Position numbers and translations under genes: made by a program
DNA from: Saprospiraceae bacterium
GTDB lineage: Bacteria > Bacteroidota > Bacteroidia > Chitinophagales > Saprospiraceae
Reading direction: 5' to 3'
NCBI GenBank assembly: GCA_013214355.1
Contig: JABSSL010000032.1
Coordinates: 1-64,000 of the forward strand
DNA length: 64,000 nucleotides
Notes under the pieces: model-generated
Told to the model about the DNA's origin: nothing
Databases searched by the model: none
The model's input: the letters and a program-made list of their open reading frames with translations, nothing else
Part shown: positions 41,440-61,881 of the stretch, in pieces
Numbering within the stretch: the first letter of the stretch is position 1
Layout of the letters: every line of letters begins with the position of its first letter

Positions 41440-44313
41440 CTAATACTCCAAAATAAACTTCGACAGATTCTGTCCCTTCTCCAGGTCCAGTTTCTTGCGT
41501 AGGCGATAGCGAGCAACTTCTACCCCTCGTAAGGAGATGTGTAGTAAGTTGGCTATTTCTTTAGTATTTAGGTTCAAACGTAAGAAGGCACAAAGCTTCT
41601 GCTCATTAGGGGAGAGATCGGGGAAATCCGTTCTCAAACGGGTCAGGAAATCTCGGTGTACTTTATTAAAGTGATATTCAAACTGTTCCCAGTCTTCTTG
41701 TAGGCGGAGCGTGGTGTCGATTTCTTTCACGAGTCGTTCTAAGGCCTGCTTGGTTTCTACACTCCTTCCCTTTTCCTTCACGGCTTGCAATTCCTCTTTG
41801 ATGGACTCGATGAACTCATTTTTTACCACAAGGTTCATCGTAGAGGCAGCCAGCAGATTATTGACATGCTGTAATTCACCTTGCATTTTCTCTTCTTTCA
41901 ATTGTTGTAGTTCCTGTTCCTTCTCTTGTTCAACTTCTATAAGTCGTTGCTGCTTAGCTGCCAATTCCACTTGCTTGGTTTCTTCTATCCTTTTGGCTTT
42001 ACGCTGGTAACGCCCTCGCTGATAGCGGAAAATCGTAAATAGACTTCCGATGCCAATGAGTAGATATAGGACCTTTGCAAAAGTGCTGCGATGGAAAGGA
42101 GGTTGCACTTTCAAGAAGAGGGTAGGGCTGTTGGTTATTTGGCCAAGATAGTTGCGCGTTTGAGCTATAAATTCATAGTTGCCTTCCCGTAGGTTGGTGT
42201 ACTCCTTTGTTGCCGATTCCGTCCATTCGCCGAAATCTTCATCCAAGCCTTTCAAGAAATATCTAAACTGTTGATTGGTCGGATCATTAAACTGGAAGGA
42301 TTCGATATCAATCTTTAAAACCTTATCCTGTGCTCCTATGACCAAGTTATCTACGCTTTCTGCTTTCTCGGCAAAAGGCTGACGGGCATACAGTTCGGTA
42401 TTTTGAGTAACGCTGTATACTCGACTAAGTACTAGTGACTGACCTACTTTTAATGGATCTTCCAGCGCGGGATTATAATGGATAAAACCTTCATTGGCGG
42501 AGAATAATACTCCATCTCGGATATTGATAGAGGCGTGAAGGAGGTCATTGTTTAGATGATACCGCAATTGATACAGTGAAGAGGGTACGTAGGCATAATT
42601 GTTATTACTGATTCGCTTGAAAAAGCCTACCGAATTATCTGTTAAGACATGCACATGGTTCTTTTTGTCTTGTTCTAGCAGGTAAACAGGCTCAGCGCCG
42701 ATATTATCGGCAAATAGTTCAGCATTTTGAACCATACCATTATTGGATTGAAGCTGATAAAGGCCTACGTTGGTGGCTAAGTAGAGATTATCGTCAATAC
42801 TGCCTAGAATGATTTGTTCATTGATGGGAAGGTCAGAATCTTGTGATATTGGCCTTACATTGGCTTGGATAAGGTCAGATGAAAGATCTAATTGGTAGAG
42901 ACCTTTGTAATATTGGCCCACCCAAATCTTACCCGTTTGATCTTCTTCAAAAAATCTACTGGAGGCATCAAAGCCTTGAATCTTTTGGATTGCCTGTAGA
43001 CCCGAATTCTGATCTACTCGAAATAAGTACAGCCCCGAGTACGTCCCTCCGATCGCATATTCTGGTTTTGACCGCAGCTGCTTGACTTTCCAAAGCCCAT
43101 CTGTCACAGCTATTCGTTGTGCCTTTCCATTCTCTAAAAGGAAAAGTCCAGTATGGTGTCCGGCATATATTTTTCCCGCAATTTCTTCCATACCATAAGC
43201 GGGGCCTTCCACCCCGGAGAGGAACTGCGATCGCTGCTCACCGCGAGCTAGGTAATAGATACCATTTGAAGTGGTATAGTAAGTCCCTTCATCCGTTTCA
43301 AAAGCTTCGTAACCGCTTCCTTGGATATTGATCTCTTGGTTGAGTAAGCGCATGGGGGAGTTGATGTGGACTAGAGCTAAACCATTTTGCATCCCGATCC
43401 ACAGGTTGCCAAAATAATCCTGGAAGGATCGAAGACATGCATTAGATGCTAGTCCTTCTTGTGTGCTGATCCTTTCTATATTATTTTCTTGTAGATCAAA
43501 GAGAAATAGACCTGCTGTTTGGGTAGAGATTGCCAACCTAGTATCGGAAAGTTGCACTACATGATTTACGTACGTTTCTCGAAGGGCCTCTACTAACTTA
43601 GGATATCGAGCTGTTACACCGAAGGGACTGGAGAATTCGATCTGCCCAGAGTTGTAGAATAATAGATAACCCTCATCCTGCTGAATGACTCCTGCAATGA
43701 TCTGCTCCTGGAGGTTCTGTGCGTAATTGCTAACCAACTTATCACCTTCTAATTCTAAAAGTTGACCACGTTGTGTCTGTGTAAACAATTTTCCATTGGT
43801 GTAAAAGGAACGTTCCAAGCCTTCGGGGTGACGGAGTACCACTATGGTATTTCCATCAAAAACGTAGATACCTTTGAAGGTGCAGAAGTACACTTGATCC
43901 TGCAATAGAAATACATCCCAGACTTCATCAAAGTCCATCGCGTCCGACGGCACCTTATCTACCAATGACACATAGGTCCAATCGCTTTCGAAGTATCCGA
44001 ACTCTCCTTGAGAACCCACATAGAGTCGATTACTTTGCTCGTCAAAAGCTAAGGAGCGCTTCTTCTTTCCCGTCTTAAAATCGTGCGTTTTCCAGTCAAT
44101 TCCATTGAAGGAAAGCACTCCTAAATTATTCGCCACAAAGAGGGTCATATCCCGGTTTTGGGCGAAATCAATGTTTTGAATACCTGCTTTATATTCTGTA
44201 GGAGTGAAATTTTGAATAGGATATTTGGCAAAGTAGCCATATAACCAACACGGCAAAATGGCAAAGATTAGCCAAACAGGTAGAATTCTGCGGGTGTAGT
44301 AATTCAGGTGCAT
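41440..44313 (-). CDS. Membrane-spanning propeller/Y_Y_Y sensor with C-terminal LuxR-type HTH
   Basis: A 957-aa one-component regulator. A signal-anchor (about 8-28) exports a long periplasmic beta-propeller of Reg_prop-like repeats (YVGSQGEFGYFES, NACLRSFQDYFGNLWIGMQN) followed by a Y_Y_Y domain (about 685-735, FRYFLKGLDEDFGEWTES). A membrane span (about 743-763, VLYLLIGIGSLFTIF) leads to a coiled coil and a LuxR-type HTH (LSPNEQKLCAFLRLNLNTKE, with VEVARYRLRKKL). There is no histidine kinase or receiver domain, so glycan binding outside is passed directly to DNA binding at the membrane, as proposed for SusR-like regulators. It is divergent from the beta-glucan genes and is their likely activator. 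Confidence 0.88.
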   Translation of the reverse strand: MHLNYYTRRILPVWLIFAILPCWLYGYFAKYPIQNFTPTEYKAGIQNIDFAQNRDMTLFVANNLGVLSFNGIDWKTHDFKTGKKKRSLAFDEQSNRLYVGSQGEFGYFESDWTYVSLVDKVPSDAMDFDEVWDVFLLQDQVYFCTFKGIYVFDGNTIVVLRHPEGLERSFYTNGKLFTQTQRGQLLELEGDKLVSNYAQNLQEQIIAGVIQQDEGYLLFYNSGQIEFSSPFGVTARYPKLVEALRETYVNHVVQLSDTRLAISTQTAGLFLFDLQENNIERISTQEGLASNACLRSFQDYFGNLWIGMQNGLALVHINSPMRLLNQEINIQGSGYEAFETDEGTYYTTSNGIYYLARGEQRSQFLSGVEGPAYGMEEIAGKIYAGHHTGLFLLENGKAQRIAVTDGLWKVKQLRSKPEYAIGGTYSGLYLFRVDQNSGLQAIQKIQGFDASSRFFEEDQTGKIWVGQYYKGLYQLDLSSDLIQANVRPISQDSDLPINEQIILGSIDDNLYLATNVGLYQLQSNNGMVQNAELFADNIGAEPVYLLEQDKKNHVHVLTDNSVGFFKRISNNNYAYVPSSLYQLRYHLNNDLLHASINIRDGVLFSANEGFIHYNPALEDPLKVGQSLVLSRVYSVTQNTELYARQPFAEKAESVDNLVIGAQDKVLKIDIESFQFNDPTNQQFRYFLKGLDEDFGEWTESATKEYTNLREGNYEFIAQTRNYLGQITNSPTLFLKVQPPFHRSTFAKVLYLLIGIGSLFTIFRYQRGRYQRKAKRIEETKQVELAAKQQRLIEVEQEKEQELQQLKEEKMQGELQHVNNLLAASTMNLVVKNEFIESIKEELQAVKEKGRSVETKQALERLVKEIDTTLRLQEDWEQFEYHFNKVHRDFLTRLRTDFPDLSPNEQKLCAFLRLNLNTKEIANLLHISLRGVEVARYRLRKKLDLEKGQNLSKFILEY

Positions 44314-44555: not shown

Positions 44556-47500
44556 ATGAAAAAAATCCTTCTACAATTAATCTTATTTGCATGCACAACC
44601 ACGCTGGCAGCCCAGGCCGATAAAGTGGAGGTTGTCACTACAGATGATGGAATGAAGCTCGTAGTCAACGGCAAAGATTTCATGGTCAATGGTATGAACT
44701 GGGATTACTTCCCAATTGGAACTACCGTTACGTATAGTTTATGGCAGCAGCCAGATGATGTCATTAGAGCGGCCTTGGACGAGGAAATGTCTCTATTGAA
44801 AAATATGGGTGTAAATGTGATCCGTGTTTACACGGGTATCCAACCGCGTTGGATTCGATACATACATGAAAAGTTTGGCATCTATACCATGCTTAATCAT
44901 GCCTTCGGTAGATATGGGTTGACGCTGGACGGAAGTTGGGTCGCCAACACGGAGTATTCTGATCCAAGAGTGATTGAGCTACTTACGAAGGAGGCGACGG
45001 CAATGGCAAAGCAATACCAAGGTACGCCCGGATTGTTATTGTACTTGCTAGGTAATGAAAACAACTACGGCCTCTTCTGGGGAGGAGCTGAGACAGAAGA
45101 TATTCCCATTCAGGATCGAAAGTCCACTATTCGTGCCCGGGCCATGTACAAGCTCATGAATCAGGCCACCGTTGCTATGAAGGCTATAGACACTGGTCAT
45201 CCAGTGGCGATCTGTAATGGTGACTTACTGTTCATGGAACTGATCGTGGAAGAATGTAAGGACGTGGATATTTTTGGAACCAATATGTACCGTGGTGTTT
45301 CCTTCGGTGATGCCTTCGAACGAGTGCGGCAGGAGTTTGGCAAGCCGATCTTATTTACAGAGTTCGGTGCAGATGCCTTCAATGCGAGAAGTAATGCTGA
45401 AGACCAGTTGTCACAAGCTTATTATATGGTGAACAATTGGCAAGAGATTTATGATAATGCTGCGGGTCTAAGTGGTGCCGGTAATTCCATTGGTGGATTT
45501 ACTTTCCAGTTCAGTGATGGATGGTGGAAATATGGCCAAACCAAAAACTTAGATGTTCACGATAATACAGCATCTTGGGCAGCTGGAGGATATGAGCGCG
45601 ACTTTGAGGAGGGAGAAAATAACATGAATGAGGAATGGTTTGGTATCTGTGCCAAGGGGCCAACCGATTCTAGAGGATTGTATCAATTGTATCCAAGAGC
45701 GGCTTACTATGCCTTGAAGCAAGCGCATGAATTTAATCCTTATGGATCTGATGCAAGCGGGGAATCCGTTAGAGCCCATTTTGGCAAAATTGCTTTGATG
45801 GATGCTGTGACTCGTGCACGAGGAGACAAGGCTGCTTTGTCTGCAGAATCGACCAAGAAAGTTCGAATCAGTGACTTTAGAGCAGAGATCTCCACCTTTG
45901 TCACGGGAGGAGATATGATCCGAACGCCCGTTGATCCCGATCCTACCGCACTAACTTACCCTGATGAATTAGGTTTTGACCATATGGCTTCTTATTTCTT
46001 TGAAGTGGAAGCAAAACCCAGTAATGATGTTCGCATGAATGTCTCCTTCAACGTACTGGGGAATGTAGCAGAAAATCCAATCAACGAAATCTTCTATGAG
46101 AACCGAGGCCGGCCTCGTACAGTCAATACGAACCAAGGCGGACTTGCCTTACCAGATATTAATCGACTTAGCGTATACCGAGCGGATTTCAACTGGAACC
46201 ACAAATGGGCAGACTTGACGGGTTTCTACCGTACTGGTCACTACCATTGGGGATATGAAGGTGACTTCTTTGGCTTGTACCCAGAGGCCAACTACGGTCC
46301 AAATATTGATATCTACAACGGTACTGCTCCTTTTGGTTTTGAGGCAGAATTGAAGAGATCTCTTAAAGGCTTCAAGATCGCTTTCGGACCAGAACTATGG
46401 TGGGGAGCTAACCCAGCCGTTTTAATAAAGTACCATCGCAAGTTTGGAAAGTATGACGTAACCGGGATTTTCCACGAAGATGTGGATCGCCCAGGTAACA
46501 CGGTAAGTTCGTTTGCTATTCCGATGCCACAAACTCGTAGAGCTACTTTACACATCAAAAGAGACCTAGGTCCATTGGGCGTCGAGCTCGGTGGTATGTG
46601 GGGTGGACAACCTCTAGTGGGTCGAGAATTCCAGATTATCGATGAGGACGATGAAAAATCAGGTGTTTACCAGGATGAGATCAAAGATAGTGATACCTGG
46701 GGTGGTAAGTTCAAATTAACGCTTACTTCAGGTAAGGTTAACTGGTACGCACAAGGTGCCGCTATGGGCTTAGTAGCCAACGGTGGAGCCGATTACACGC
46801 AGACCTTTACCGGGTGGAGATTGAAAGATAGTGGAAGTGGTAATCAGGTTAACTTCTTGACTGGTTTTACCTATGCGATGGGTAATTTCCAGATTGCGCC
46901 AAACTTCTTGTGGCAAAGACCTATCGTTGCTCCGATTCCCGGTGATGTTGCTGCTCCCGGCAGACCTAGAAACATCCTTGATGATCCATTTGCTGTAAGA
47001 GGTAACCGAGAGCAGGTAGCTGGTGAGATCCTATTCACTTACGATCCTACCCCTGCAACCTGGATGTATTCTTGGGATAGTGACATGGTAGAAGATTCGA
47101 AGTTTGCGGTTAGTGCAGGTTTTGTGTATCGCCACTTGCCGACCACGATGGATGCTGGTGTCGGTATCTTTGGTGATGGTCGTACACTCTTCGTCTTCCC
47201 AGGCGCTCCACCAGCCAAAGATCTCTGGGAAGCTCACGCACGTATCGTATCTAAGGTTAGTACCAACTTTGGTATCATTGCCAATGTATATGGTGGTACT
47301 GCGCAGGCCAATGGTAGCGACCCTCGTTTACTTGAGCGCTTTGGAACTGATGTACGTTTGATCTACAACAAACTTAAGGTAGCCACGATGTTCAAATTGA
47401 ACGACTGGGGACCATTTGACTATCATCGTGACTTCAACTTAACTTTCCCACTGCAGCTAACTGCTGATATCTCTACAAACTTAGGAAGCCCAACCTGGTT

Positions 47501-47690
47501 GGATATGCCCGATACTAGAGCAGGTATTCGTGCTACTTGGCGTTCGTTGGATCAATTTTCTCCACGTTACTGCCCAACAACTGCTTTGGACGCAGCAGGA
47601 GACAGAGTTTGTGATCCACTTGCACCTGGTTTCGACGATGGTCAAGAATGGGAAATTAGAACTTATATACACTTCAACATAGGCAAATAG
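44556..47690 (+). CDS. Clan GH-A glycosidase fused to a predicted outer-membrane beta-barrel
   Basis: A 1044-aa secreted protein in two parts. Residues 20-400 form a GH2/GH5-like TIM barrel: LVVNGKDFMVNGMNWDYFPI, NMGVNVIRVYTG, the likely acid/base Glu168 in LLGNENNYG and the likely nucleophile Glu269 in PILFTEFGADA. Residues about 430-1044 have no hydrolase features. They are a succession of aromatic-rich amphipathic strands and polar loops (RADFNWNHKWADLTGFYRTG, RATLHIKRDLGPLGVELGG, VNFLTGFTYAMGNFQIAPNF) that end in EIRTYIHFNIGK, as in an outer-membrane barrel. There is no SusC plug or TonB box. As the first gene of a beta-1,3-glucan locus it may cut glucan at the surface and pass products inward. 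The enzyme part is confident; the barrel is predicted from pattern only. Confidence 0.75.
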   Translation: MKKILLQLILFACTTTLAAQADKVEVVTTDDGMKLVVNGKDFMVNGMNWDYFPIGTTVTYSLWQQPDDVIRAALDEEMSLLKNMGVNVIRVYTGIQPRWIRYIHEKFGIYTMLNHAFGRYGLTLDGSWVANTEYSDPRVIELLTKEATAMAKQYQGTPGLLLYLLGNENNYGLFWGGAETEDIPIQDRKSTIRARAMYKLMNQATVAMKAIDTGHPVAICNGDLLFMELIVEECKDVDIFGTNMYRGVSFGDAFERVRQEFGKPILFTEFGADAFNARSNAEDQLSQAYYMVNNWQEIYDNAAGLSGAGNSIGGFTFQFSDGWWKYGQTKNLDVHDNTASWAAGGYERDFEEGENNMNEEWFGICAKGPTDSRGLYQLYPRAAYYALKQAHEFNPYGSDASGESVRAHFGKIALMDAVTRARGDKAALSAESTKKVRISDFRAEISTFVTGGDMIRTPVDPDPTALTYPDELGFDHMASYFFEVEAKPSNDVRMNVSFNVLGNVAENPINEIFYENRGRPRTVNTNQGGLALPDINRLSVYRADFNWNHKWADLTGFYRTGHYHWGYEGDFFGLYPEANYGPNIDIYNGTAPFGFEAELKRSLKGFKIAFGPELWWGANPAVLIKYHRKFGKYDVTGIFHEDVDRPGNTVSSFAIPMPQTRRATLHIKRDLGPLGVELGGMWGGQPLVGREFQIIDEDDEKSGVYQDEIKDSDTWGGKFKLTLTSGKVNWYAQGAAMGLVANGGADYTQTFTGWRLKDSGSGNQVNFLTGFTYAMGNFQIAPNFLWQRPIVAPIPGDVAAPGRPRNILDDPFAVRGNREQVAGEILFTYDPTPATWMYSWDSDMVEDSKFAVSAGFVYRHLPTTMDAGVGIFGDGRTLFVFPGAPPAKDLWEAHARIVSKVSTNFGIIANVYGGTAQANGSDPRLLERFGTDVRLIYNKLKVATMFKLNDWGPFDYHRDFNLTFPLQLTADISTNLGSPTWLDMPDTRAGIRATWRSLDQFSPRYCPTTALDAAGDRVCDPLAPGFDDGQEWEIRTYIHFNIGK

Positions 47691-47728
47691 TGAGTTGATC
47701 TCATGGCCGAAGAGCCTATATCATCACA

Positions 47729-47744: not shown

Positions 47745-47758
47745 AAAGAAATAAATAG

Positions 47759-50700
47759 ATGAAAGCTAAACCAATATTTAAAGTTTCCTCAACGCTCTGT
47801 GCAGCGCTACTACTACTACTTGCTTTCAGCTGTAGCAGAGAAATTGACGGATTGGAACCTGCTGATTTTCCCGCTGGTGGAGAGGTCTTCATTGATGGTT
47901 TCCCAGGTGGTCTGGAATACACTGCCTTTGGTGGCTCTAAAACGGACGCATTTCAAGTAGATGAAGACGTAGCCTACGATGGAGAAGCTTCCATGCGTTT
48001 TGAAATACCCGATCTTGATGACCCAAGTGGAGGGTATGCAGGTGGAGCTTACACTTTTCCAGTAGGCCGAGATTTGACTGGATTTGATGCCTTGACTTTT
48101 TGGGCCAAAGCGTCTAAGTCCGCTAACATTGATGAAATTGGATTTGGTAACGATTTGGGAGAATCCAAGTACCGAGTGGTCATCACTAGTGTTGCTGTAA
48201 ATACCAATTGGAAGAAGTATATCATTCCCATTCCTGATGCATCGAAACTAACGCAGGAAAGAGGTATGTTATGGTATTCTGAAGGACCAGAAGATGGAAA
48301 GGGCTATACCTTTTGGATTGATGAGGTGCAATTTGAGAAGTTGGGAACTGTAGCTCATCCCAAGGCTGCCATTTTACTAGGTAATGATCTTCAGCTGACT
48401 GCTGAAACAGGTGATAGATTGCTTGTTGATGGCTTGACAGCTACCGCTAACTTACCGAATGGAGTTGATCAAACTGTATTCGCTGCTCCCGGATATTTTG
48501 ACTTCACTTCTTCTAATCCATCCGTTGCTTCAATCAACGCAAGTGGCGTGCTTACTGTAATCGATGCCGGTACCACCGTTATTACAGCTAAGTTAGGGGA
48601 AGTAGATGCCACAGGTTCTTTGACCCTTGAATCTAGTGGAGACCCTATCTTGCCCGCTACGCCAGCTCCTACACCGCAGGTTAGCCAGGATAGTGTAATT
48701 TCTATGTATAGCAATGTCTATAATGATGTAGTGGTGGATACCTGGAACCCTTTCTGGGAATTCTCGACTACACTCGTGGATGATGTTAAAATCGGAGATG
48801 ATGACCTGAAGCGATATAAGCAACTCAACTTTGTAGGTATTCTTACGGAGTCGGCTAAGATCGATGCTTCTGAGATGACCCACTTCCATATGGACATCTG
48901 GACACCAGATCCTACGGACGGTGGACAGACCTTCAAGATCCTTCTAGTGGATTTCGGAGCAGATGGTAACTTCGGAGGAAATGATGATTCATCTCATGAA
49001 GTGAGCTTCACGGCGCCAACCTTGTCATCAGGAAAATGGGTAAGCCTAGATATTCCTTTGGTGGACTTTGCCGGTTTGGTGAATCGTAATAATATTGCTC
49101 AATTGGTACTTTCCGGAGAACTTCGCAACGTCTTTGTAGACAATGTTTATTACTATAATGCTGGCTCAAGTGGACGACCAGAACCAACTGAAGCTGCACC
49201 AACCCCGACGGTGGATGCTGCTGATGTTGTTTCTCTATATAGTAATGCTTATGATGATGTACCCGTAGATACTTGGTCCGCTGATTGGGACGTGGCGCAG
49301 TTAGAAGACATTCAGGTAGCTGGAGATGATGTGAAGCTGTACACCGGTTTGTCCTTTGCAGGTATTGAATTTACGAGTCAGACAGTAGATGCTTCTCAGT
49401 TGGACCGTTTCCATATGGACATTTGGACGCCAGATCCTACTGCTGTACCTGCTGCCCTGCGTATCAAGTTAGTGGACTTTGGTGCAGACGGAGCTTTTGG
49501 TGGAGGTGATGATGTAGAGCATGAACTGGCTATCGATGCTAACACAAGTCCTGCTTTGGCTACGGAACAATGGGTAGGCATAGATTTGCCGCTAAGCGCT
49601 TTTGCAGGCCTTACCACCCGTGCCAACCTCGCACAAATGATTATCTCTGGTGATCCTAACACTTTATACGTTGACAACATCTACTTCTACGCTGGTGAAG
49701 GCGGCGGAGGTGGTGGTGGCGGAGATACCGAGCCTATGGTAGCTGCTCCAGCCCCTACGCAAAGTAGTGCGGATGTTGTTTCGCTATTCAGTGATGTATA
49801 TGACGATGTGCCAGTGGATACTTGGCGCACAGATTGGTCAAATGCGACTTTCGAAGATGTCTTGGTAGCCGATAATGCGACTAAGAAGTATTCTGCACTT
49901 GACTTCGTGGGTATTGAAACGGTAGCCAACCCTGTGGATGCTAGTGGTATGACGCACTTCAGTATGGACGTATGGTCACCTGACTTCACCGTCTTTGGTA
50001 TCAAACTGGTTGATTTCGGTGCCGATGGTGCTTTCGGTGGAGGTGATGATGTCGAGCATCAGATTAATTTTGAAGCTCCGGTCCAAGGGGATTGGGTAAG
50101 TTTTGATATTCCATTGACAGATTTCACTGGTTTGACTACTACTTCCAATATTGCACAGTATATCATCGTAGGACAGCCTACAGGCGCGACTACGGTATTT
50201 GTGGATAATGTTTACTTCTTCAATAGTGAAGGAGGTGGCGGTGGTGGCGGTAATGAGCCTTCTATGGCTGCTCCAACCCCAACACAAAGTGAGGCGGATG
50301 TAGTTTCGGTATTTAGTGATGCCTATACTGATGTAGCCGTCGATACCTGGCGTACAGATTGGTCTTCAGCTACTTTCGAAGATGTAATGGTGGATGGAAA
50401 TGCTACTAAGAAGTACTCAGACTTAGACTTTGTAGGCATTGAGACGGTATCAAGCACAGTAGATGCCAGCAATATGACGCACTTCCGTATGGATGTTTGG
50501 TCACCTGACTTTACGGTCTTTGGTATCAAGCTGGTGGACTTCGGCGCTGACGGTGCCTTCGGCGGTGGTGATGATACAGAACATCAAATCAACTTCGATG
50601 CTCCGGTGCAAGGAGAATGGGTAAGCTTCGATATCCCATTGACTGACTTTACTGGGCTTACTACGACAGGTAATATTGCGCAGTTTATTTTAGCGGGACA

Positions 50701-51796
50701 ACCAACAGGAGCCACTACAGTCTTTGTAGATAACATCTACTTCTATACGGATGGAAGTGGTGGCATGTTAACGGAGCCAGCCATGGCCGCTCCGATGCCT
50801 ACTCAAGATGCTGCGAATGTAGTTTCGGTATTTAGTGATGCCTACGATGATGTAGCTATAGATACATGGCGTACAGACTGGTCGGCTGCTACTTTCGAGG
50901 ATGTTACGGTTGCAGGAAATGCGACTAAGAAGTATTCTGCACTGGATTTCGTCGGAATTGAGGCCGTTTCTAGTCCTGTAGATGCTAGCAATATGACTAA
51001 CTTCCGCATCGATATATGGTCTGCTGACTTCGAGTTGTTCGGTATTAAACTGGTAGACTTTGGTGCTGATGGTGCCTTTGGTGGTGGCGATGATGTAGAG
51101 CAACAACTGGACTTCAACATGCCAATGCAAGGGGAATGGGTGAGCCTAGACATTCCACTGAGCGACTTCACGGGGCTAACAACTACGGGTAATATCGCTC
51201 AATTCATCTTAGTAGGTCGTCCCGCAGGAACTACTACTGTCTTTGTAGATAATATGTTCTTCTATGGAGAAGGAGATGGTGGTGGTGGAAACCTTACGGA
51301 GCCAGCAGAAGCTGCTCCAGCACCAACCCTTGCCGAAGCAGATGTGATTTCGCTTTTCAGCGATGTGTACACAGATGTACCTGTTGATACTTGGCGTACA
51401 GACTGGTCTTCGGCGACTTTCGAAGATGTGATGGTAGCCGGTAATGCCACGAAGAAGTATTCTGCCTTAGATTTTGTGGGTATCGAAACAGTGGCCAACA
51501 CCGTTGATGCCAGTGAAATGACCCACTTCCATATCGATGTATGGTCTGCTGATGCTACCTTCTTTGGCATCAAAATCGTTGATTTTGGAGCAGATGGTGC
51601 TTTTGGTGGTGGTGATGACGTAGAACACCAAATCAACTTTGAAGCGCCTCAACAAGGAGGCTGGGTAAGCTATGATATTCCATTGACTGACTTCACAGGA
51701 TTGACGACACAAGGAAATGTGGCACAGTATATCTTGGTAGGTCAGCCTACTGGTGCAAATACCATTTTCGTGGATAACATGTATTTCCACAAATAA
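47759..51796 (+). CDS. Multimodular surface lipoprotein with six tandem CBM-like repeats
   Basis: A 1345-aa lipoprotein (signal ending LLLLLAFSCSREIDG). After an N-terminal CBM-like beta-sandwich (about 35-200) and a BIG2-type Ig domain (about 215-297, SSNPSVASINASGVLTVID) come six copies of a domain of about 165 residues, starting near 301, 475, 658, 833, 1006 and 1181. Each copy carries VVSxFSDxYxDVxxDTW, MTHFxMDxW, KLVDFGADGAFGGGDD, a VSFDIPLxDFTGLTT block and VFVDNxYF; the FGADG..GGGDD loop may bind calcium. Poly-Gly linkers join several copies. Similar repeats occur beside laminarin enzymes of marine Bacteroidota. It lies between the glycosidase-barrel gene and the GH16 gene and probably replaces SusD as the surface glucan binder; this is inference. 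Confidence 0.85.
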   Translation: MKAKPIFKVSSTLCAALLLLLAFSCSREIDGLEPADFPAGGEVFIDGFPGGLEYTAFGGSKTDAFQVDEDVAYDGEASMRFEIPDLDDPSGGYAGGAYTFPVGRDLTGFDALTFWAKASKSANIDEIGFGNDLGESKYRVVITSVAVNTNWKKYIIPIPDASKLTQERGMLWYSEGPEDGKGYTFWIDEVQFEKLGTVAHPKAAILLGNDLQLTAETGDRLLVDGLTATANLPNGVDQTVFAAPGYFDFTSSNPSVASINASGVLTVIDAGTTVITAKLGEVDATGSLTLESSGDPILPATPAPTPQVSQDSVISMYSNVYNDVVVDTWNPFWEFSTTLVDDVKIGDDDLKRYKQLNFVGILTESAKIDASEMTHFHMDIWTPDPTDGGQTFKILLVDFGADGNFGGNDDSSHEVSFTAPTLSSGKWVSLDIPLVDFAGLVNRNNIAQLVLSGELRNVFVDNVYYYNAGSSGRPEPTEAAPTPTVDAADVVSLYSNAYDDVPVDTWSADWDVAQLEDIQVAGDDVKLYTGLSFAGIEFTSQTVDASQLDRFHMDIWTPDPTAVPAALRIKLVDFGADGAFGGGDDVEHELAIDANTSPALATEQWVGIDLPLSAFAGLTTRANLAQMIISGDPNTLYVDNIYFYAGEGGGGGGGGDTEPMVAAPAPTQSSADVVSLFSDVYDDVPVDTWRTDWSNATFEDVLVADNATKKYSALDFVGIETVANPVDASGMTHFSMDVWSPDFTVFGIKLVDFGADGAFGGGDDVEHQINFEAPVQGDWVSFDIPLTDFTGLTTTSNIAQYIIVGQPTGATTVFVDNVYFFNSEGGGGGGGNEPSMAAPTPTQSEADVVSVFSDAYTDVAVDTWRTDWSSATFEDVMVDGNATKKYSDLDFVGIETVSSTVDASNMTHFRMDVWSPDFTVFGIKLVDFGADGAFGGGDDTEHQINFDAPVQGEWVSFDIPLTDFTGLTTTGNIAQFILAGQPTGATTVFVDNIYFYTDGSGGMLTEPAMAAPMPTQDAANVVSVFSDAYDDVAIDTWRTDWSAATFEDVTVAGNATKKYSALDFVGIEAVSSPVDASNMTNFRIDIWSADFELFGIKLVDFGADGAFGGGDDVEQQLDFNMPMQGEWVSLDIPLSDFTGLTTTGNIAQFILVGRPAGTTTVFVDNMFFYGEGDGGGGNLTEPAEAAPAPTLAEADVISLFSDVYTDVPVDTWRTDWSSATFEDVMVAGNATKKYSALDFVGIETVANTVDASEMTHFHIDVWSADATFFGIKIVDFGADGAFGGGDDVEHQINFEAPQQGGWVSYDIPLTDFTGLTTQGNVAQYILVGQPTGANTIFVDNMYFHK
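48659..51793 (+). repeat. Six in-frame tandem repeats of about 520 bp
   Basis: Repeat starts are near 48659, 49181, 49730, 50255, 50774 and 51299. Copies 3, 4 and 6 are nearly identical in protein over most of their length, copies 5 and 2 differ more and copy 1 is the most divergent. This order suggests recent expansion from the C-terminal side. Such DNA can recombine and may be misassembled in short-read data. Confidence 0.85.
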
Positions 51797-51810
51797 GAAT
51801 TAGTGTAGTT

Positions 51811-51907: not shown

Positions 51908-52741
51908 ATGCAATTTAAATATAGCACGATAAAGCCCTTAGCTGGCCTGACACTTCTCTTTTTAGTAGCCTTCGCTTTTTCTTCTTGCGAGGATGACAAC
52001 GTGGCTTTGGCAGATCGCAATTATCAGCTTGTATGGCAAGATGAATTTGATGGACCTGCTGGTCAATTGCCGGACGCGACCAAGTGGAATTTTGATGTGG
52101 GTACAGGTTGGGGTAACAACCAGCTAGAATACGATACAGACCGTGCCGAAAATGCTTCTACTGATGGTAATGGCAACCTAGCTATCGTAGCTCGTAGAGA
52201 ATCTTTTGCCGGTTCTGCTTTTACTTCCGCTAGAATTACAACCTTAGGAAAATTTGACCGCACCTACGGCCGATACGAAGCCCGTATCAAAATGCCTTGG
52301 GGTCCCGGAATTTGGCCTGCTTTCTGGTTGTTGGGTTCAAATTGTGACCAGCAAGAATGGCCGCTATGTGGCGAGATAGACGTGATGGAGTATCGTGGCC
52401 AAGAGCCAAATATTATTCACGGATCTGTGCACGGACCTGGATATTCAGCAGGAGGAGCAATCACCAAGAACTTTAGCTTCGAAAATGCACGCTTTGACAC
52501 GGATTTTCATCTATTCGCGGTGGAGTGGGGAGAAGAATTTATCAACTACTATGTAGACGATACGCTATACTTCTCCATTACCCCGGCAGATTTGCCAGGC
52601 GAATGGGTATATGACCACCCTTTTCATATTATCCTGAACGTGGCCGTTGGGGGTGACTACGTAGGTTTTCCAACTATCCAGACACCTTTCCCACAAACCA
52701 TGTTAGTGGATTACGTGAGAGTATATCAGGAAGTAAATTAG
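51908..52741 (+). CDS. GH16 beta-1,3-glucanase (laminarinase-type) lipoprotein
   Basis: A 277-aa GH16 enzyme with a lipoprotein signal (VAFAFSSCEDD). The catalytic motif GEIDVMEYRG gives nucleophile Glu156, helper Asp158 and acid/base Glu161; the extra Met in EIDVME is the beta-bulge form typical of laminarinases. Other family blocks are YQLVWQDEFDGPAG, WGNNQLEYDTDRAEN, MPWGPGIWPAFWLLG, HGSVHGPGYSAG and the final PQTMLVDYVRVYQ. It cleaves beta-1,3-glucan internally by a retaining mechanism, near the membrane surface. The protein is a single catalytic domain of normal size. It lies between the binding lipoprotein and the phosphorylase gene, which supports laminarin as the substrate. Confidence 0.95.
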   Translation: MQFKYSTIKPLAGLTLLFLVAFAFSSCEDDNVALADRNYQLVWQDEFDGPAGQLPDATKWNFDVGTGWGNNQLEYDTDRAENASTDGNGNLAIVARRESFAGSAFTSARITTLGKFDRTYGRYEARIKMPWGPGIWPAFWLLGSNCDQQEWPLCGEIDVMEYRGQEPNIIHGSVHGPGYSAGGAITKNFSFENARFDTDFHLFAVEWGEEFINYYVDDTLYFSITPADLPGEWVYDHPFHIILNVAVGGDYVGFPTIQTPFPQTMLVDYVRVYQEVN

Positions 52742-52794: not shown

Positions 52795-55700
52795 ATGGAA
52801 ACCGTACAGTCAACAACAGAACTGGTAGAAATCAGCCAGGTAGAATTTGAGGGCGAAGCTTACTTCAAAATTGCTAATAGTGACGCCATGCGTCCTTTCT
52901 TCATGAGCCTTGTTAGTCATTCCAATCACTGGATGTTTATCTCCAGTAATGGCGGACTGACAGCGGGTCGGAAGAATTCGGAGAACCCACTGTTCCCTTA
53001 TTACACAGATGACAAGATTACCGAGTCGGCTGAAATTACCGGCAGCAAATCGATCTTCTGTGTGCACAAGGAAGGTAAGGCCTTGATTTGGGAGCCATTC
53101 TCCGAGCGATTCGAAGGTAGATACATGGTTCGGAGAAACCTGTACAAGAGTATCTATGGTAACAAGCTGCTTTTTGAAGAAGTGAATTTAGACCTAGAGC
53201 TGAGCTTTCGATATCAATGGTGTACTAGTGAAAAGTACGGTTTTGTCCGAAGATCCATCCTGACCAATATGTCTGGAGGAGAGGTGGTTGTGGAATTATT
53301 AGACGGTCTTCAGAATATCATGCCTTACGGCGTACCAAGTGATCTGCAAATGCGATCTAGTAACTTGGTAGATGCCTACAAGAAAAGTGAACTGGAAAAA
53401 GACTCGGGCTTAGGAATCTATAGCCTAAGTGCCATTATTGTTGATAAGGCCGAACCTAGTGAAGCCTTAAAGGCTAATATCGTCTGGTCGCTTGGTTTAG
53501 ATAATCCGAAATATCTTTTGTCCTCCCGACAACTAAAGAACTTCAGGAAAGGACTACCCTTACAAGAAGAAATTGATGTGCGTGCCGAAAAAGGGGCGTA
53601 TTTGTTGAATACCGAAGTCCAGCTTGCGGCCAACGCGGAAAAATCCTGGATGATTATCGCCGATGTAAATAAAAACCACTCAGCTTTAGCCAGAATATCG
53701 GAAACCATTGGTGGGGAAAAGGAATTGGAGAATTTGATTAAACAAGACATTGCGGCCTGCACCGAAAGCCTGATTGCACTCAATGCGGCTTCTGACGCTT
53801 TGCAGCTGACTGCAGACAAGTTTAGAGATGCTCGTCATTTCTCCAATGTGTTGTTCAATATCATGCGAGGAGGGATTTTCGATGACAATTATCAAATCGA
53901 AAAGCCCGATTTTGCGAGCTATTTGGAAAAGGCTAATCGTAATTCCTACGAGCAAGCCAAAGCCCAATTAGACAAGCTTCCTGACCTTTTCTCCTTTGCT
54001 ACGCTCCAAAGAATAGCCAGTCAAAGTCAAGATGATGACTTCAAGAGGCTTTCTTTGGAGTATATGCCTTTGAAGTTTAGTCGTCGGCATGGTGACCCCA
54101 GCCGTCCCTGGAATAAGTTTTCTATCAATACCCGAAGTGAACTGGACGGTTCGAAGATCTTAGACTATGAAGGCAATTGGCGCGATATTTTCCAGAACTG
54201 GGAGGCCTTAGCCTTAGCCTATCCTATGTTCATCGAGAGTATGTTCCAGAAGTTTCTCAATGCAACGACCTTCGATGGCTATAACCCTTATCGGGTGACT
54301 AAAGGTGGTTTTGATTGGGAAATCATCGAGCCGGATGATCCTTGGTCGTACATTGGTTATTGGGGAGATCACCAGATCATCTATCTGCTGAAATTCTTAG
54401 AGTTTTCAGAGAAGGTGTTCCCTGGCAAACTTGCTACCTACTTCTACAAGGATCTATTTGTCTACGCAAATGTGCCTTATCGAATCAAATCCTTTGAGGA
54501 AATCCTCAAAAACCCAAAGGACACCATTGATTTCGATCATGAGTTGGATCAACGTATACGCGAACGTAGAGATGCCATCGGGGCAGATGGCGCATTACTG
54601 TGCAATGCAGAGGGTGAAATCTTTCGGGCGAATTTCATTGAGAAGATCTTAGCTACACTACTCGCTAAGTTGTCTAACTATATCCCTGAAGGGGGTATTT
54701 GGATGAATACACAACGTCCAGAGTGGAATGATGCTAATAATGCCTTAGTAGGGAATGGCGTTTCGATGGTCACTTTGTATTACCTGCACCGTTTTCTACA
54801 ATTCTTTAAAGGCTTATTGAAGGAAGCTAAGCAGGAGGAATTCATGGTGGCGGAAGAACTCATGGAGTTCTTCGGAAAAATCCAATCCACCTTTGAGCAA
54901 AATAAGTCGATCCTTACAGGAGCGATCAATGATAAGGATCGAATGCAAGTATTGCGTGGAGTAGGGGAGGCAGGTTCTACTTACCGAGACAAGATTTACG
55001 ACCAAGGCTTCTCGGGTGTCAAGGCCCCGATGAAACTTGGCGCGTTACAATACTTCATTGATATCAGCATCGACTATCTTACACACGCCATCGATGCTAA
55101 CAAACGCTCCGACAACCTCTATCACGCCTACAACTTAATGACCGTAGAAAGTGATACGGAGACTTCCATATCATATTTGAGCGAAATGCTAGAAGGTCAA
55201 GTGGCGGTCTTGAGCGCGGGCCATCTTTCTGGGGAGGAGTCTCTCGCGGTGTTGGATGCCATGCGAGAAAGTAAGTTGTACCGTGCAGATCAACATAGCT
55301 ACCTGCTGTATCCTAACAAGGACCTACCGCGCTTCACCAAGAAAAATACTGTCCCGACAGCCGCTGTTGCTGATTGTGCACTTCTACAAAAGTTAGTGCA
55401 AGATGGCCAGGCTCAGATCATTGAACAAGACATTAAAGGGGAGTATCACTTTAATGGCAATTTTAGAAATGCTAATGATTTAGAGGCAGCTCTAGGTGAA
55501 CTTGCAGAAGGGCCTTACGCTGATCTTCTACAGCAGGATAAGCGCAAGATCCTCGATATTTTTGAGGATATGTTTGACCATAAAGCTTTTACCGGTAGAT
55601 CGGGGACCTTCTTCGGCTATGAGGGTTTAGGTTCTATCTATTGGCATATGGTTTCCAAGCTATTATTGGCGGTCCAAGAAAGTTACCTACGTGCTAGGAA

Positions 55701-56241
55701 AGAGGGGGCGACTCCCGCTACGCTAGATGCACTCGCTGCCCATTACCACGAGATTAACAAGGGTATTGGCGTACATAAAGCTCCAGCCGTTTATGGCGCA
55801 TTCCCAACTGATCCATATTCACATACTCCTGCCGGCAAGGGGGCTCAGCAACCCGGCATGACCGGACAGGTTAAAGAGGATATTCTTAGCCGATTTGGAG
55901 AACTAGGTGTATTTGTGAAAGGGGGGCAATTATCCTTTGATCCGACTCTCCTGCAGGAGGCAGAGTTCTTAGGAACACCCCAAATCTTCTCCTATTTGGA
56001 TGTCGAAGGCCAGGCACAAGAAGTTCAACTGCCCGCTGGGGCTCTAGCATTTACCTACTGTCAGGTGCCGGTTATCTATCAGCTAGCTGAATCAGAAAGC
56101 TTAGCGGTTACCTTTAAGGACGGCCGTTTGGAGAAATCAGAAACGCTTGCCCTTGACCCGGCAGCCAGCCAACAGCTTTTTGAAAGGACGGCCCAAATTG
56201 AGCAGATCGTCGTTCAGCTACAGAAAGCGAGAATGAGATAG
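52795..56241 (+). CDS. GH94-clan glucan phosphorylase, probably GH149 (beta-1,3-glucan phosphorylase)
   Basis: A 1148-aa protein without a signal peptide, hence cytoplasmic. It has the layout of the inverting phosphorylases: an N-terminal beta-sandwich (MSLVSHSNHWMFISSNGGLT, NPLFPYYTDD), a helical linker and an (alpha/alpha)6 barrel with the catalytic Asp646 in PEWNDANNALVGNG. The length (about 1150 aa against 800 for GH94) and the start with ISSNGGLTAGRKN fit GH149; GH161 is the main alternative. The reaction splits beta-1,3-gluco-oligosaccharides with phosphate to give glucose 1-phosphate, saving ATP. The surrounding GH16, GH17 and GH30 genes support a beta-1,3-glucan substrate. No truncation or frameshift is seen. 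Confidence 0.82.
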   Translation: METVQSTTELVEISQVEFEGEAYFKIANSDAMRPFFMSLVSHSNHWMFISSNGGLTAGRKNSENPLFPYYTDDKITESAEITGSKSIFCVHKEGKALIWEPFSERFEGRYMVRRNLYKSIYGNKLLFEEVNLDLELSFRYQWCTSEKYGFVRRSILTNMSGGEVVVELLDGLQNIMPYGVPSDLQMRSSNLVDAYKKSELEKDSGLGIYSLSAIIVDKAEPSEALKANIVWSLGLDNPKYLLSSRQLKNFRKGLPLQEEIDVRAEKGAYLLNTEVQLAANAEKSWMIIADVNKNHSALARISETIGGEKELENLIKQDIAACTESLIALNAASDALQLTADKFRDARHFSNVLFNIMRGGIFDDNYQIEKPDFASYLEKANRNSYEQAKAQLDKLPDLFSFATLQRIASQSQDDDFKRLSLEYMPLKFSRRHGDPSRPWNKFSINTRSELDGSKILDYEGNWRDIFQNWEALALAYPMFIESMFQKFLNATTFDGYNPYRVTKGGFDWEIIEPDDPWSYIGYWGDHQIIYLLKFLEFSEKVFPGKLATYFYKDLFVYANVPYRIKSFEEILKNPKDTIDFDHELDQRIRERRDAIGADGALLCNAEGEIFRANFIEKILATLLAKLSNYIPEGGIWMNTQRPEWNDANNALVGNGVSMVTLYYLHRFLQFFKGLLKEAKQEEFMVAEELMEFFGKIQSTFEQNKSILTGAINDKDRMQVLRGVGEAGSTYRDKIYDQGFSGVKAPMKLGALQYFIDISIDYLTHAIDANKRSDNLYHAYNLMTVESDTETSISYLSEMLEGQVAVLSAGHLSGEESLAVLDAMRESKLYRADQHSYLLYPNKDLPRFTKKNTVPTAAVADCALLQKLVQDGQAQIIEQDIKGEYHFNGNFRNANDLEAALGELAEGPYADLLQQDKRKILDIFEDMFDHKAFTGRSGTFFGYEGLGSIYWHMVSKLLLAVQESYLRARKEGATPATLDALAAHYHEINKGIGVHKAPAVYGAFPTDPYSHTPAGKGAQQPGMTGQVKEDILSRFGELGVFVKGGQLSFDPTLLQEAEFLGTPQIFSYLDVEGQAQEVQLPAGALAFTYCQVPVIYQLAESESLAVTFKDGRLEKSETLALDPAASQQLFERTAQIEQIVVQLQKARMR

Positions 56242-56274: not shown

Positions 56275-57621
56275 ATGATTCCTTACCTCGCTGTAAGGGG
56301 TTACACTCTAATAACTAGACAAAACGATAGAACCTTGAATCCTACAAAGCTCATAGCAATCCTTTTCGGTTTAACTCTATGTTTTTCTTGCAATCCCAAG
56401 GAGACACAGGAGGAAAACTCATCACCCATAACATCAACAGTCTTGGCTAAAGATATTCTAGGAAACCCTGAATATTTGGCGATCTCCTACGGAGGATACC
56501 GTCAAAATAGTAGAGATGTTCAACCCACCGTAGCGCAGTTGAAAGAGGATATGAAAATTCTCTCTGCCATGGGCATCAAGGTTCTACGAACTTATAATGT
56601 GGAGTTGCCGCATGCATCGAATGTCGTGGCTGCCATCGCTGAGCTAAAGAAGGAAGATCCTACTTTCGAAATGTATGTAATGCTGGGGGCTTGGATCGAC
56701 TGTAAAGGAGCATTTACGGATAATCCTGATCACAACGAGGAAGATGTCGAAGCCAATGCTGCCGAAATTCAGCGCGCTGTGGAATTAGCTAATCGCTACC
56801 CCGATATCATTAAAATTATTGCGGTGGGGAATGAGGCTATGGTTAAGTGGGCAGCCAGTTATTTTGTACAGCCAGGCGTGATATTGAGATGGGTGAATTA
56901 TTTGCAAGAGCTAAAACAAGCTGGAGATCTACCAGCGGATCTTTGGATCACAAGTTCTGACAACTTTGCTTCCTGGGGGGGAGGAGGTGAGGAATATCAT
57001 GTAGAAGACCTCACTGCTTTAATTAAGGCGGTTGATTTTGTTTCTCTACACACCTATCCAATGCACGATACGCACTACAATCCAGACTTCTGGGGTAATG
57101 CCCCCGATGAAGCGTCGAAGTCAGATAGTGCGAGAATTGCCGCAGCCATGGATCGGGCACTAGCCTATGCACAGACCCAATACCGAAATACAGCAGAATA
57201 CATTAGAAACCTTGGGGTTGATAAACCGATCCACATTGGAGAGACAGGTTGGGCTAGTTTTTCCAATGGGCACTATGGCAATGAAGGTTCCAAGGCTACA
57301 GATGAGTACAAGGAGGGCATCTATTATCACCTCCTACGTGACTGGACCAATAAAGAAGGGATATCCTGCTTTTACTTCGAGGCCTTTGACGAGAACTGGA
57401 AAGACGCTGGCAATCCAGGAGGCTCTGAGAACTATTTTGGACTATTTACCATCGACGGTAAAGCCAAATATGTTTTATGGGATCTAGTGGATCAAGGTAC
57501 TTTCGAAGGATTGGGCAGAGGAGGGCAACCGATCACTAAGACTTTCAATGGTGAACTATCGGAATTGCTTAAGGAGGTGGCTACTCCACCCGTGAAAGAA
57601 TCACTGACTGCTCAACAGTAA
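56275..57621 (+). CDS. GH17 beta-1,3-glucanase/transglycosylase lipoprotein
   Basis: A 448-aa GH17 enzyme. A lipoprotein signal is seen (LIAILFGLTLCFSCNP); the ATG at 56275 leaves 20 extra residues ahead of it, so the in-frame TTG at 56335 may be the true start. Catalytic residues fit acid/base Glu187 in IAVGNEAMVKW and nucleophile Glu323 in IHIGETGWAS. GH17 members hydrolyse beta-1,3-glucans or rearrange them by transglycosylation. The enzyme is about 130 residues longer than the two signal-less GH17 proteins downstream, mainly at both ends. It lies 33 bp after the phosphorylase and 95 bp before GH30 on the same strand. Confidence 0.9.
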   Translation: MIPYLAVRGYTLITRQNDRTLNPTKLIAILFGLTLCFSCNPKETQEENSSPITSTVLAKDILGNPEYLAISYGGYRQNSRDVQPTVAQLKEDMKILSAMGIKVLRTYNVELPHASNVVAAIAELKKEDPTFEMYVMLGAWIDCKGAFTDNPDHNEEDVEANAAEIQRAVELANRYPDIIKIIAVGNEAMVKWAASYFVQPGVILRWVNYLQELKQAGDLPADLWITSSDNFASWGGGGEEYHVEDLTALIKAVDFVSLHTYPMHDTHYNPDFWGNAPDEASKSDSARIAAAMDRALAYAQTQYRNTAEYIRNLGVDKPIHIGETGWASFSNGHYGNEGSKATDEYKEGIYYHLLRDWTNKEGISCFYFEAFDENWKDAGNPGGSENYFGLFTIDGKAKYVLWDLVDQGTFEGLGRGGQPITKTFNGELSELLKEVATPPVKESLTAQQ

Positions 57622-57716
57622 TTGAGCTTCCGACGGGCTGAAATCACTAAGCTATCCATAATTATGACCCCATAAAATCTGAACTATTTTACCCAGTGCA
57701 CTTAAAACACCTAAAA

Positions 57717-59192
57717 ATGAAATACCCTTATCTACTACTAGTGCTTATGCTTGCTGCCTGTAACACTGTCGAAGAATTAGATGTCGAGGTATATGAGACC
57801 TCAGCAGCTGGAAACCAGCTAACCGCATTGACTGAATTTTCTGAAGCTCAGGAGGCTACGGAAATCAAATTAAAGCCTGATGAATCATTTCAAACCATCA
57901 CGGGTTTTGGCGGTTCCTTTACCGAATCATCAGCCTATTTGCTAAATAAATTAGGAGCAGAAAATAGAGCCAAGATTTTGGAAGCCTACTTCGGGGAAAG
58001 TGGGGCCAAGTACTCCTTGACTAGAACACACATGAACTCCTGTGACTTTTCCGTTAGCAATTACTCCTACGCCCCGGTGGAGGGGGATGTGAAATTAGAT
58101 AGTTTCTCCATCGAAGAAGATCGAGATGATATCATCCCAATGATCAAAGAGGCAATGGCCGTTTCTAAGGATGGCTTCAAGATCCTTTCTTCTCCCTGGA
58201 CTGCTCCTCCGTGGATGAAAGACAATAAAGACTGGCGCGGTGGAAAATTACTGCCAGAGTACTATGAAACCTGGGCACTTTTCTTTTCCAAATACTTAGA
58301 TGCCTATAAAGCTGAGGGGATTGATATTTGGGGATTTACCGTTGAAAATGAGCCTCTGGGAAATGATAGCAACTGGGAGAGTATGCACTTCACTCCTGCT
58401 GAAATGACGCACTTTGTCCAACAATATTTGGGTCCTAAGCTAGAGGCTGATGGCCATAGTGTCAATATCTTAGGCTATGACCAAAACCGAGAACACCTGA
58501 AGGAATGGGTGGATGAAATGTACAAAGACGAGGGAACTTCTAAATATTATGATGGAACAGCGATACACTGGTACGCTAGTACTTTTGAAGTGTTCCCAGA
58601 AGAACTACAATATGCCCACCAGAAGGCCCCAAATAAATATTTGATCCAGTCAGAAGCTTGTGTGGATGCCCAAGTACCCGTGTGGCAGGATGATCAATGG
58701 TATTGGTCCAAGGAAGCTACGGATTGGGGTTGGGACTGGGCTCCAGAGGACCAAAAACATATGCACCCCAAGTATGTGCCGGTTTACCGCTATGCTCGCG
58801 ATATCATCGGTTGTCTAAACAATTGGGTAGACGGGTGGATCGATTGGAATATGGTACTGGATCGCCAGGGCGGCCCTAACTGGTTCAAGAACTGGTGTGT
58901 TGCGCCGGTCATTGTTGATCCGGATGCGGATCAAGTCTACTTCACGCCGCTTTACTACACCTTATCTCATTTCAGTCGATATATCCGACCTGGTGCTAAA
59001 AGAATTGGTTTTGAGCACACTGATGAGGATCTACTCGTAACTGCTGCCCAAAACCCTGATGGCTCCCTTGCCGTGGTATTGCTCAACCAAGGGAGTGAAG
59101 AAAAACAGATTTCTCTTTCTCTCGGCGAGAAAGTCAAAAATATCTCCATTGATGCCCAAGCCATACAAACGATTATAGTTCCCAATCAATAG
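57717..59192 (+). CDS. GH30 beta-glucosidase/beta-1,6-glucanase lipoprotein
   Basis: A 491-aa GH30 enzyme with a clear lipobox (MKYPYLLLVLMLAACNTV), which decides the start at 57717 over the in-frame GTG at 57696. The family start TITGFGGSFTESSAYLLNKL and SLTRTHMNSCDFSVSNYSY are present. The acid/base is Glu212 in FTVENEPLG and the nucleophile Glu313 in LIQSEACVD. A C-terminal beta domain (LLVTAAQNPDGSLAVVLLNQ) completes the family layout. GH30 members of laminarin loci remove beta-1,6-linked glucose branches, which would prepare the chain for phosphorolysis. The transporter gene starts 23 bp downstream. Confidence 0.93.
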   Translation: MKYPYLLLVLMLAACNTVEELDVEVYETSAAGNQLTALTEFSEAQEATEIKLKPDESFQTITGFGGSFTESSAYLLNKLGAENRAKILEAYFGESGAKYSLTRTHMNSCDFSVSNYSYAPVEGDVKLDSFSIEEDRDDIIPMIKEAMAVSKDGFKILSSPWTAPPWMKDNKDWRGGKLLPEYYETWALFFSKYLDAYKAEGIDIWGFTVENEPLGNDSNWESMHFTPAEMTHFVQQYLGPKLEADGHSVNILGYDQNREHLKEWVDEMYKDEGTSKYYDGTAIHWYASTFEVFPEELQYAHQKAPNKYLIQSEACVDAQVPVWQDDQWYWSKEATDWGWDWAPEDQKHMHPKYVPVYRYARDIIGCLNNWVDGWIDWNMVLDRQGGPNWFKNWCVAPVIVDPDADQVYFTPLYYTLSHFSRYIRPGAKRIGFEHTDEDLLVTAAQNPDGSLAVVLLNQGSEEKQISLSLGEKVKNISIDAQAIQTIIVPNQ

Positions 59193-61833: not shown

Positions 61834-61881
61834 GGTGACTCCAAAACACAAAAATTGTCAGAGAACCAAAGATACAAGTAC

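Follow-up and report, generated by a model that had tools for sequence, protein, structure and literature searches.

A gene at 44556..47690 (+ strand) of a Saprospiraceae bacterium contig encodes a protein of 1044 residues in which a signal peptide and a glycosidase of clan GH-A (GH, glycoside hydrolase) are followed, in the same chain, by an outer-membrane beta-barrel. Positions refer to the window, the whole stretch of 64,000 nucleotides that was analysed (assembly GCA_013214355.1, contig JABSSL010000032.1, positions 1 to 64,000, forward strand). Such fusions of a glycosidase to an outer-membrane barrel are widespread in environmental Bacteroidota and are unnamed in the family libraries used. 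The fused protein probably serves to bring oligosaccharides of beta-1,3-glucan (laminarin-type) in through the outer membrane, independently of SusC/SusD.

The protein begins with a signal peptide, apparently of type I when the sequence is inspected by eye (residues 1-20; 44556..44615, +, immediately ahead of 44616). A lipobox was found at the N-terminus of none of 32 sampled fused relatives by pattern, and of two of the 32 by a looser pattern. The glycosidase domain comprises residues 21-425 (44616..45830, +) and, by weak but consistent matches to Pfam and GH158, is a clan GH-A TIM barrel with Glu168 and Glu269 as its catalytic residues, as had been claimed in an earlier note on this DNA. The Pfam family Glyco_hydro_2_C (cut-off 21 bits) matched the whole protein at 21.1 bits and the glycosidase domain alone at 25.1 bits. 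With a 13-row profile, the nearest relatives in the PDB were GH158 endo-beta-1,3-glucanases (6pal, E 2.4e-5; 9oro, E 7e-5), while the matches by a single stretch were weak (E 0.37 and 0.0022). Glu168, the presumed acid/base, lies in an NEN motif (45057..45059, +) and aligns with the NES glutamate of 9oro, and Glu269, the presumed nucleophile, lies in a TEF motif (45360..45362, +) and aligns with the TEW glutamate of 6pal. Both were unchanged in 130 of 130 aligned rows, made up of the window copy and 129 distinct sequences. GH158 thus appears to be the nearest solved family only, with weak kinship (E about 1e-5) and conserved catalytic glutamates.

The remaining residues, 426-1044 (45831..47687, +), form a plugless outer-membrane beta-barrel domain of 26 predicted strands; the boundary between the two parts, put at 400-430 by the earlier note, lies nearer residue 426-435. 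An AlphaFold2 model of this domain built with 85 sequences was all-beta (pLDDT, the predicted local confidence, 81.6; pTM, the predicted template-modelling score, 0.79), and the 50 best PDB matches listed by Foldseek were outer-membrane barrels, including TonB receptors, MOMP, OprC, PapC and AlgE among others, with E-values down to 9.5e-10. A second structural aligner gave Z-scores of 12.8-16.2 with OprD/Occ porins, AlgE, Wzi, maltoporin and other porins. These porin superpositions cover mostly residues about 61-473 of the model, which is larger than the porins of 16-18 strands, and the FimD/PapC ushers were matched over nearly the whole barrel model (Z 12.7-13.9). The 50 matches that this aligner listed were outer-membrane barrels too, and no soluble family stood among the 50 listed in either comparison. 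The model holds 26 strands of at least seven residues, the final one at 604-618 of 619, though the hairpin 266-283 of the barrel model may sit outside the membrane, so that 24 strands are also possible. Alternation of inward and outward hydrophobicity along the strands was 1.29 against 0.715 for shuffled sequences (standard deviation 0.103), above all 5000 shuffles. By this model, and with a signal peptide at one end of the protein and a strand at the other, the C-terminal domain is an outer-membrane beta-barrel, and the reading that the earlier note had drawn from residue patterns is thus borne out. The soluble forms named beforehand as outcomes that would speak otherwise, a beta-sandwich, a propeller or a known carbohydrate-binding module (CBM), were ruled out for the C-terminal part by the AlphaFold2 model, Foldseek and Pfam.

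No significant Pfam or NCBIfam match was found for the C-terminal domain, and PDB sequence searches returned nothing relevant, whether made with the whole protein, with the C-terminal part by itself or with a profile of that part; the barrel appears to belong to an undescribed family. The earlier note had also seen no plug and no TonB box. Neither the window protein nor a 10-row alignment matched the Plug domain (PF07715) at E<=1, and in a positive comparison this domain did match the SusC proteins of two other loci (L111 and L112). No TonB box was visible by eye, the signal peptide running straight into the GH domain. Profile kinship with SusC barrels was not detected by hhalign against a small set of six (probability 0.19 percent, E 0.31), by which a descent from SusC detectable by profile was ruled out. 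The SusC barrel has 22 strands against 26 in the model, and TonB receptors were among the structural matches listed. The fused protein would thus work as an uptake unit of the kind found in polysaccharide utilisation loci (PULs) without being a SusC, as it has no plug and no profile kinship with the six SusC barrels.

The loops of the barrel domain are strongly asymmetric. The stretch that links one strand to the next has a mean length of 19.8 residues where it follows an odd strand and of 4.8 where it follows an even one (Mann-Whitney p 1.6e-4), and mean column entropy was 0.97 bits in the odd-strand connections against 1.65 bits in the even-strand ones (p 0.0096), the long connections being on average the better conserved; in most porins it is the outer loops that evolve fastest. 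The long loops that do vary are those after strands 1, 9 and 25. Among the conserved ones, the long loop of residues 559-592 (HYHWGYEGDFFGLYPEANYGP; 46230..46331, +) has a mean entropy of 0.33 bits and is a candidate glucan-contact or constriction loop, in a part of the model where confidence is only about 57-69. Lower still are the entropies of the loops at residues 613-619 (ELWWGAN; 46392..46412, +; 0.19 bits) and 951-963 (WGPFDYHRDFNLT; 47406..47444, +; 0.16 bits). The near-invariant loops are abundant in Trp, Tyr, His, Asp, Glu and Arg, a composition that would fit a sugar-contacting outer mouth. The short turns of outer-membrane barrels are generally periplasmic, and if this holds here, both ends of the barrel domain and the enzyme fused to it would face the periplasm. 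The glycosidase is thus predicted to lie on the periplasmic side, where it would cut at the inner mouth of the barrel and not at the outer one.

The two-part layout recurs widely. A search of contigs with the barrel as query gave 510 related stretches, from which the best-scoring 80 were kept as a set biased accordingly; three of these seem to repeat sampled genomes (G001, G002 and G016). In 80 of these best 80 of 510 loci the GH stood in the same frame as the barrel, seven of the genes being cut by the contig start. A sample of 395 Bacteroidota genomes, including the source genome (G000), held the GH in 43, of which 33 were fused (intact or cut by a contig end), nine barrel-less and one broken. 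The barrel profile matched 35 of the 395, namely the same 33 fusions, the broken gene of G291 and a remnant of 61 residues in G176. No free-standing barrel was found among the 395 genomes, in a search that took a loose first look and then scored at most three candidates per genome; an extra barrel piece at a contig end in G260 is probably the remainder of the contig-cut gene of that genome. Among the 60 nearest genomes, the source genome included, 20 gave a match: ten to the whole fusion, two cut within the barrel at or near contig ends, three to the GH alone and five weak or partial. Homologues with the layout described by the earlier note are thus common, and the fusion is fixed, the barrel being found only with the GH. 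A chance or assembly fusion was ruled out by its recurrence in contig-search loci and sampled genomes. Fused copies also occur in records labelled Thermoanaerobaculia, Calditrichia and Balneolia/Balneolaceae (L034, L060, L088 and L099), which would reflect either transfer beyond the Bacteroidota or binning errors.

A tree of the GH domain with 125 rows, from which L011 and L012 (truncated at a contig end or close to one), L002, L003 and L008 were left out, required six changes between the fused and the bare state, many of its branches being weakly supported. The bare GH of G176 nests in a fused clade (94 by the approximate likelihood-ratio test SH-aLRT), and behind this barrel-less gene the 61-residue barrel remnant follows a stop (L155), which together point to loss of the barrel in that genome. 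In G291 (L165) the fused gene lies in broken pieces, as in barrel decay. Some barrel-less relatives carry a lipoprotein-type signal, L013 by a lipobox pattern that covered eight of ten rows, and L140 and L146 by eye, both of which the pattern missed. Judging from these three N-termini, the enzyme seems to be lipid-held at the membrane when the barrel is absent.

The gene stands at the head of a cluster (44556-62823) which, by its enzyme families, appears to be a laminarin-type degradation locus. It is followed on the + strand by a partner lipoprotein with tandem modules like CBM11/CBM30, just below the Pfam cut-offs (47759..51796), a GH16 with an N-terminus that looks lipoprotein-like by eye (51908..52741), a GH149 beta-1,3-glucan phosphorylase in which no signal peptide was seen (52795..56241; 1784 bits in NCBIfam, where the cut-off is 1150), a GH17, again with an N-terminus lipoprotein-like by eye (56275..57621), a GH30 (57696..59192), an MFS_2 sugar transporter of the inner membrane (major facilitator superfamily, MFS; 59216..60646) and two further GH17 genes (60720..61604 and 61855..62823). 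A divergent regulator precedes the cluster (41440..44313, - strand), with Y_Y_Y, propeller and LuxR-like matches that are all weak and below the Pfam cut-offs. The sole GH149 and all three GH17 found in the source genome sit in this cluster.

The partner lipoprotein follows the fusion with great constancy. It was the next gene in 78 of 78 contig-search loci with readable downstream sequence and stood next to the fusion in 30 of 31 readable sampled fused loci, one further locus lying at a contig end. By contrast, it was next to the barrel-less GH in none of 12 loci, judged by eye (G010, G015, G019, G424, G176, G161, G392, G360, G180, G353, G298 and G388, several of them near contig ends; Fisher p 8.5e-10). 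In the sampled fused loci it is usually followed by GH16 and GH149. The window copy has 1345 residues and several tandem copies of one module, and complete-looking relatives range from roughly 470 to 1430 residues. A loose lipobox fits 102 of 122 partner rows, the pattern misplacing the cysteine in a few, and is mostly followed by an acidic stretch of the type C-E-R-D-x-D-D-L-E, which we take to resemble the surface-export signals of Bacteroidota. The protein is presumed from these features to be a surface glycan-binding protein; a PDB sequence search with it gave nothing relevant.

SusC and SusD were sought by phmmer with four SusC/SusD pairs of the source genome, by which remote members may be missed; the count over the sampled fused loci used a limit of 90 bits. 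Neither was recognised among the window genes at 44556-62823. A SusD/SusC pair does lie on the minus strand at 9255-14324 of the window, separated from the glucan cluster by about 30 kb and beside other large open reading frames, the nearest SusD match in the window being the frame at 9255-10874. The two proteins were recognised together in none of the 80 contig-search loci (flanks of at most 6 kb, some shorter), where the exceptions to a complete absence were SusD alone in L073 and weak SusC matches in L074 and L083, and in 28 of 32 sampled fused loci they were not recognised together.

In some barrel-less loci the same operon is built around SusC and SusD. G010 and G015 have the order regulator, SusC, SusD, PKD lipoprotein, GH16, barrel-less GH, GH149, GH17, GH30 and MFS, G010 having an additional GH17-like gene after GH149 and before GH17, and Pfam confirms SusC (with its Plug), SusD and PKD in this arrangement. 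G360 is alike except that a protein of 741 residues takes the PKD position and no GH30 was seen, and G161 shows the order SusC, SusD, GH16, barrel-less GH and GH149. In G007, G033, G047, G025 and the window, it is instead the GH-barrel gene and the CBM lipoprotein that precede GH16 and GH149. It is mainly this swap between SusC/SusD on one side and the GH-barrel and CBM lipoprotein on the other that leads us to read the fused protein as an uptake unit.

In the working that we propose, the GH16 lipoprotein and the CBM lipoprotein would cut and hold glucan at the cell surface, and the plugless barrel of 24-26 strands would admit the fragments, led by the strongly conserved loops, aromatic and charged, that surround its outward-facing opening. 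In the periplasm, the GH158-like enzyme of the fusion would cleave the fragments as they emerge and so maintain an inward gradient that makes diffusion one-way. GH30 and GH17 would trim them further, MFS_2 would move what results through the inner membrane, and in the cytoplasm GH149, by phosphorolysis, and the other GH17 enzymes would complete the breakdown. The roles given here to GH16, GH17, GH30, MFS and GH149 are taken from their families and from the available text on marine laminarin loci (PMC6246565, PMC5827456). The architecture, the conserved catalytic residues and loops, the constant linkage to the GH and the gene order are observed here, and the barrel fold is seen in a model; the opening of the pore, the transport itself, its substrate, the side of the enzyme and the lack of TonB dependence are what we infer.

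Several observations weigh against this proposal. The Foldseek superpositions were loose (template-modelling scores of 0.24-0.40, root-mean-square deviation 12-17.5), a full-length AlphaFold2 model with 10 sequences was poor (pLDDT 51) and thus leaves the placement of the GH relative to the barrel unmodelled, and the conserved loops might block the channel, which is presumed to be open. SusC/SusD lies near four of the 32 sampled fused loci, all of one family (G282, G411, G110 and G160). It was adjacent, by eye, to just four of the 12 barrel-less loci and to none of the other eight, leaving uncounted a SusC-like match about 12 kb off in G180, a weak SusC-like match in G353 and a weak SusD about 19 kb off in G424; the contrast of 4/32 with 4/12 is not significant (Fisher p 0.18). 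The source genome moreover has a separate locus of SusC, SusD, lipoprotein, GH16 and GH16 on contig C101 (L215:1899-9361), a candidate second beta-glucan PUL, because of which the fused unit need not be the sole route in this organism. Lastly, in the accessible part of its description BuGH158, the characterised enzyme nearest to the fused one, is regarded by its authors as surface-anchored, though the predictor could not place it (PMC7157763). The mode of uptake unlike SusC/SusD that the earlier note had envisaged has therefore gained circumstantial support from gene order, with a SusC/SusD contrast that is not clean and a separate SusC/SusD and GH16 locus in the genome standing on the other side.

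Some of these points would suit another role, in which the barrel merely anchors the glycosidase at the outer membrane, much as a lipid anchor would, and the fragments enter by other transporters. The lipoprotein-like N-termini of L013, L140 and L146, the separate SusC/SusD and GH16 locus and the four fused loci with SusC/SusD nearby are all in keeping with it. A pure anchor, however, would have no need of near-invariant long loops, and its co-retention with a presumed glycan-binding lipoprotein (30/31 against 0/12) would go unexplained, as would the 28 of 32 sampled fused loci in which SusC and SusD were not recognised together; we consider this role unlikely. More doubtful still is a barrel that acts as an autotransporter-like exporter and displays the glycosidase on the surface. 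The order of signal peptide, enzyme, helical linker and C-terminal barrel is that of type Va autotransporters, and the surface anchoring ascribed to BuGH158 in the text available (PMC7157763) would agree with such display. Against this, no Autotransporter Pfam match was present in the window protein or the 10-row alignment, about 26 strands are predicted in place of the 12 of autotransporters, a mere passenger exporter would not need near-invariant aromatic loops, and by loop parity the domain would both start and finish on the periplasmic side.

There is very little to recommend a role in the opposite direction, with the barrel exporting a glucan made by the cell and the GH acting as a periplasmic trimming hydrolase, as with AlgE and PgaA in exopolysaccharide secretion. 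AlgE scores among the highest in the structural comparison (Z 16.1), and exopolysaccharide systems do pair outer-membrane barrels with periplasmic hydrolases; yet the recognised genes of the operon are degradative (GH16, GH149, GH17, GH30, MFS_2 and the lipoproteins), and no glycan synthase was recognised among them. Import of beta-1,3-glucan fragments by the fused unit thus remains the reading that we favour.

Its closest known counterparts share parts of this arrangement. With the SusC/SusD laminarin PUL of marine Flavobacteriia (variant B / variant 1) the window has the enzymes GH16, GH149, GH17, GH30 and MFS in common, and the barrel-less cluster of G010 and G015, with its SusC, SusD and PKD lipoprotein, resembles that PUL as far as it is set out in the available text (PMC6246565, PMC10108472, PMC6298971); the window has no SusC, SusD or PKD lipoprotein in its cluster, their place being taken by the pair of genes for the GH-barrel and the CBM lipoprotein. 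One laminarin PUL without susCD has already been noted, and a 'GH0' adjoins GH149 in laminarin PULs, according to the parts of PMC10108472 available; this 'GH0' may be the barrel-less form of the fused enzyme. The GH158 endo-beta-1,3-glucanases are by profile the closest solved relatives of the fused enzyme, with weak similarity, and BuGH158 is portrayed, in the available text, as a protein with a signal of the lipoprotein type in which a TIM barrel is accompanied by an Ig-like domain and not by a membrane barrel (PMC7157763).

A carbohydrate-active enzyme (CAZyme) fused to a transporter is known from the same kind of locus in Formosa, the MFS-GH17 fusion FORMB_24740 (FbGH17B), of which its authors, in the text available, knew none in other bacteria (PMC6246565). 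FORMB_24740 joins a GH17 to a known MFS in the inner membrane, whereas the window protein joins a GH158-like enzyme to an unclassified barrel in the outer membrane. An MFS_2-GH17 fusion also occurs in the same operon in L117:13978-16404 and L122:5036-7408, these being separate genes in the window. Nearest in logic is the atypical PUL chu_1276-1280 of Cytophaga hutchinsonii, which has no canonical SusC/SusD and, in the accessible portion of its description, comprises a predicted barrel (CHU_1276), a CBM11-like protein (CHU_1279) and an endoglucanase (PMC12016534). It combines a predicted, SusC/SusD-independent outer-membrane barrel with a surface-type CBM11-like protein; it differs from the window in acting on cellulose and in its separate genes, no enzyme-barrel fusion being mentioned in that portion. 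Searches of open-licence PubMed Central papers, by title and opening of the abstract, brought up no account of a glycosidase joined to an outer-membrane barrel.

Laminarin, a major carbon store of algae, ranks among their most abundant sugars. Polysaccharide uptake in Bacteroidota is commonly recognised by SusC/SusD as its hallmark, and the annotation of PULs relies on it, so that loci with the conserved and widespread unit described here, which usually have no SusC/SusD beside them, would be classed simply as clusters of CAZymes, and the number of laminarin users could be underestimated. The fused and barrel-less versions of one operon provide a ready-made natural comparison. If the fused protein does import, a plugless channel and its enzyme would do the work otherwise done by a TonB-driven pump. 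It may be, though we put this forward tentatively, that Bacteroidota possess in it an importer of glycans across the outer membrane that is of a third kind, in which a large, plugless, undescribed barrel, permanently fused to its own periplasmic glucanase and paired with a CBM-type surface lipoprotein, draws laminarin fragments inward through their cleavage on arrival, replaces the whole of SusC/SusD and dispenses with TonB.

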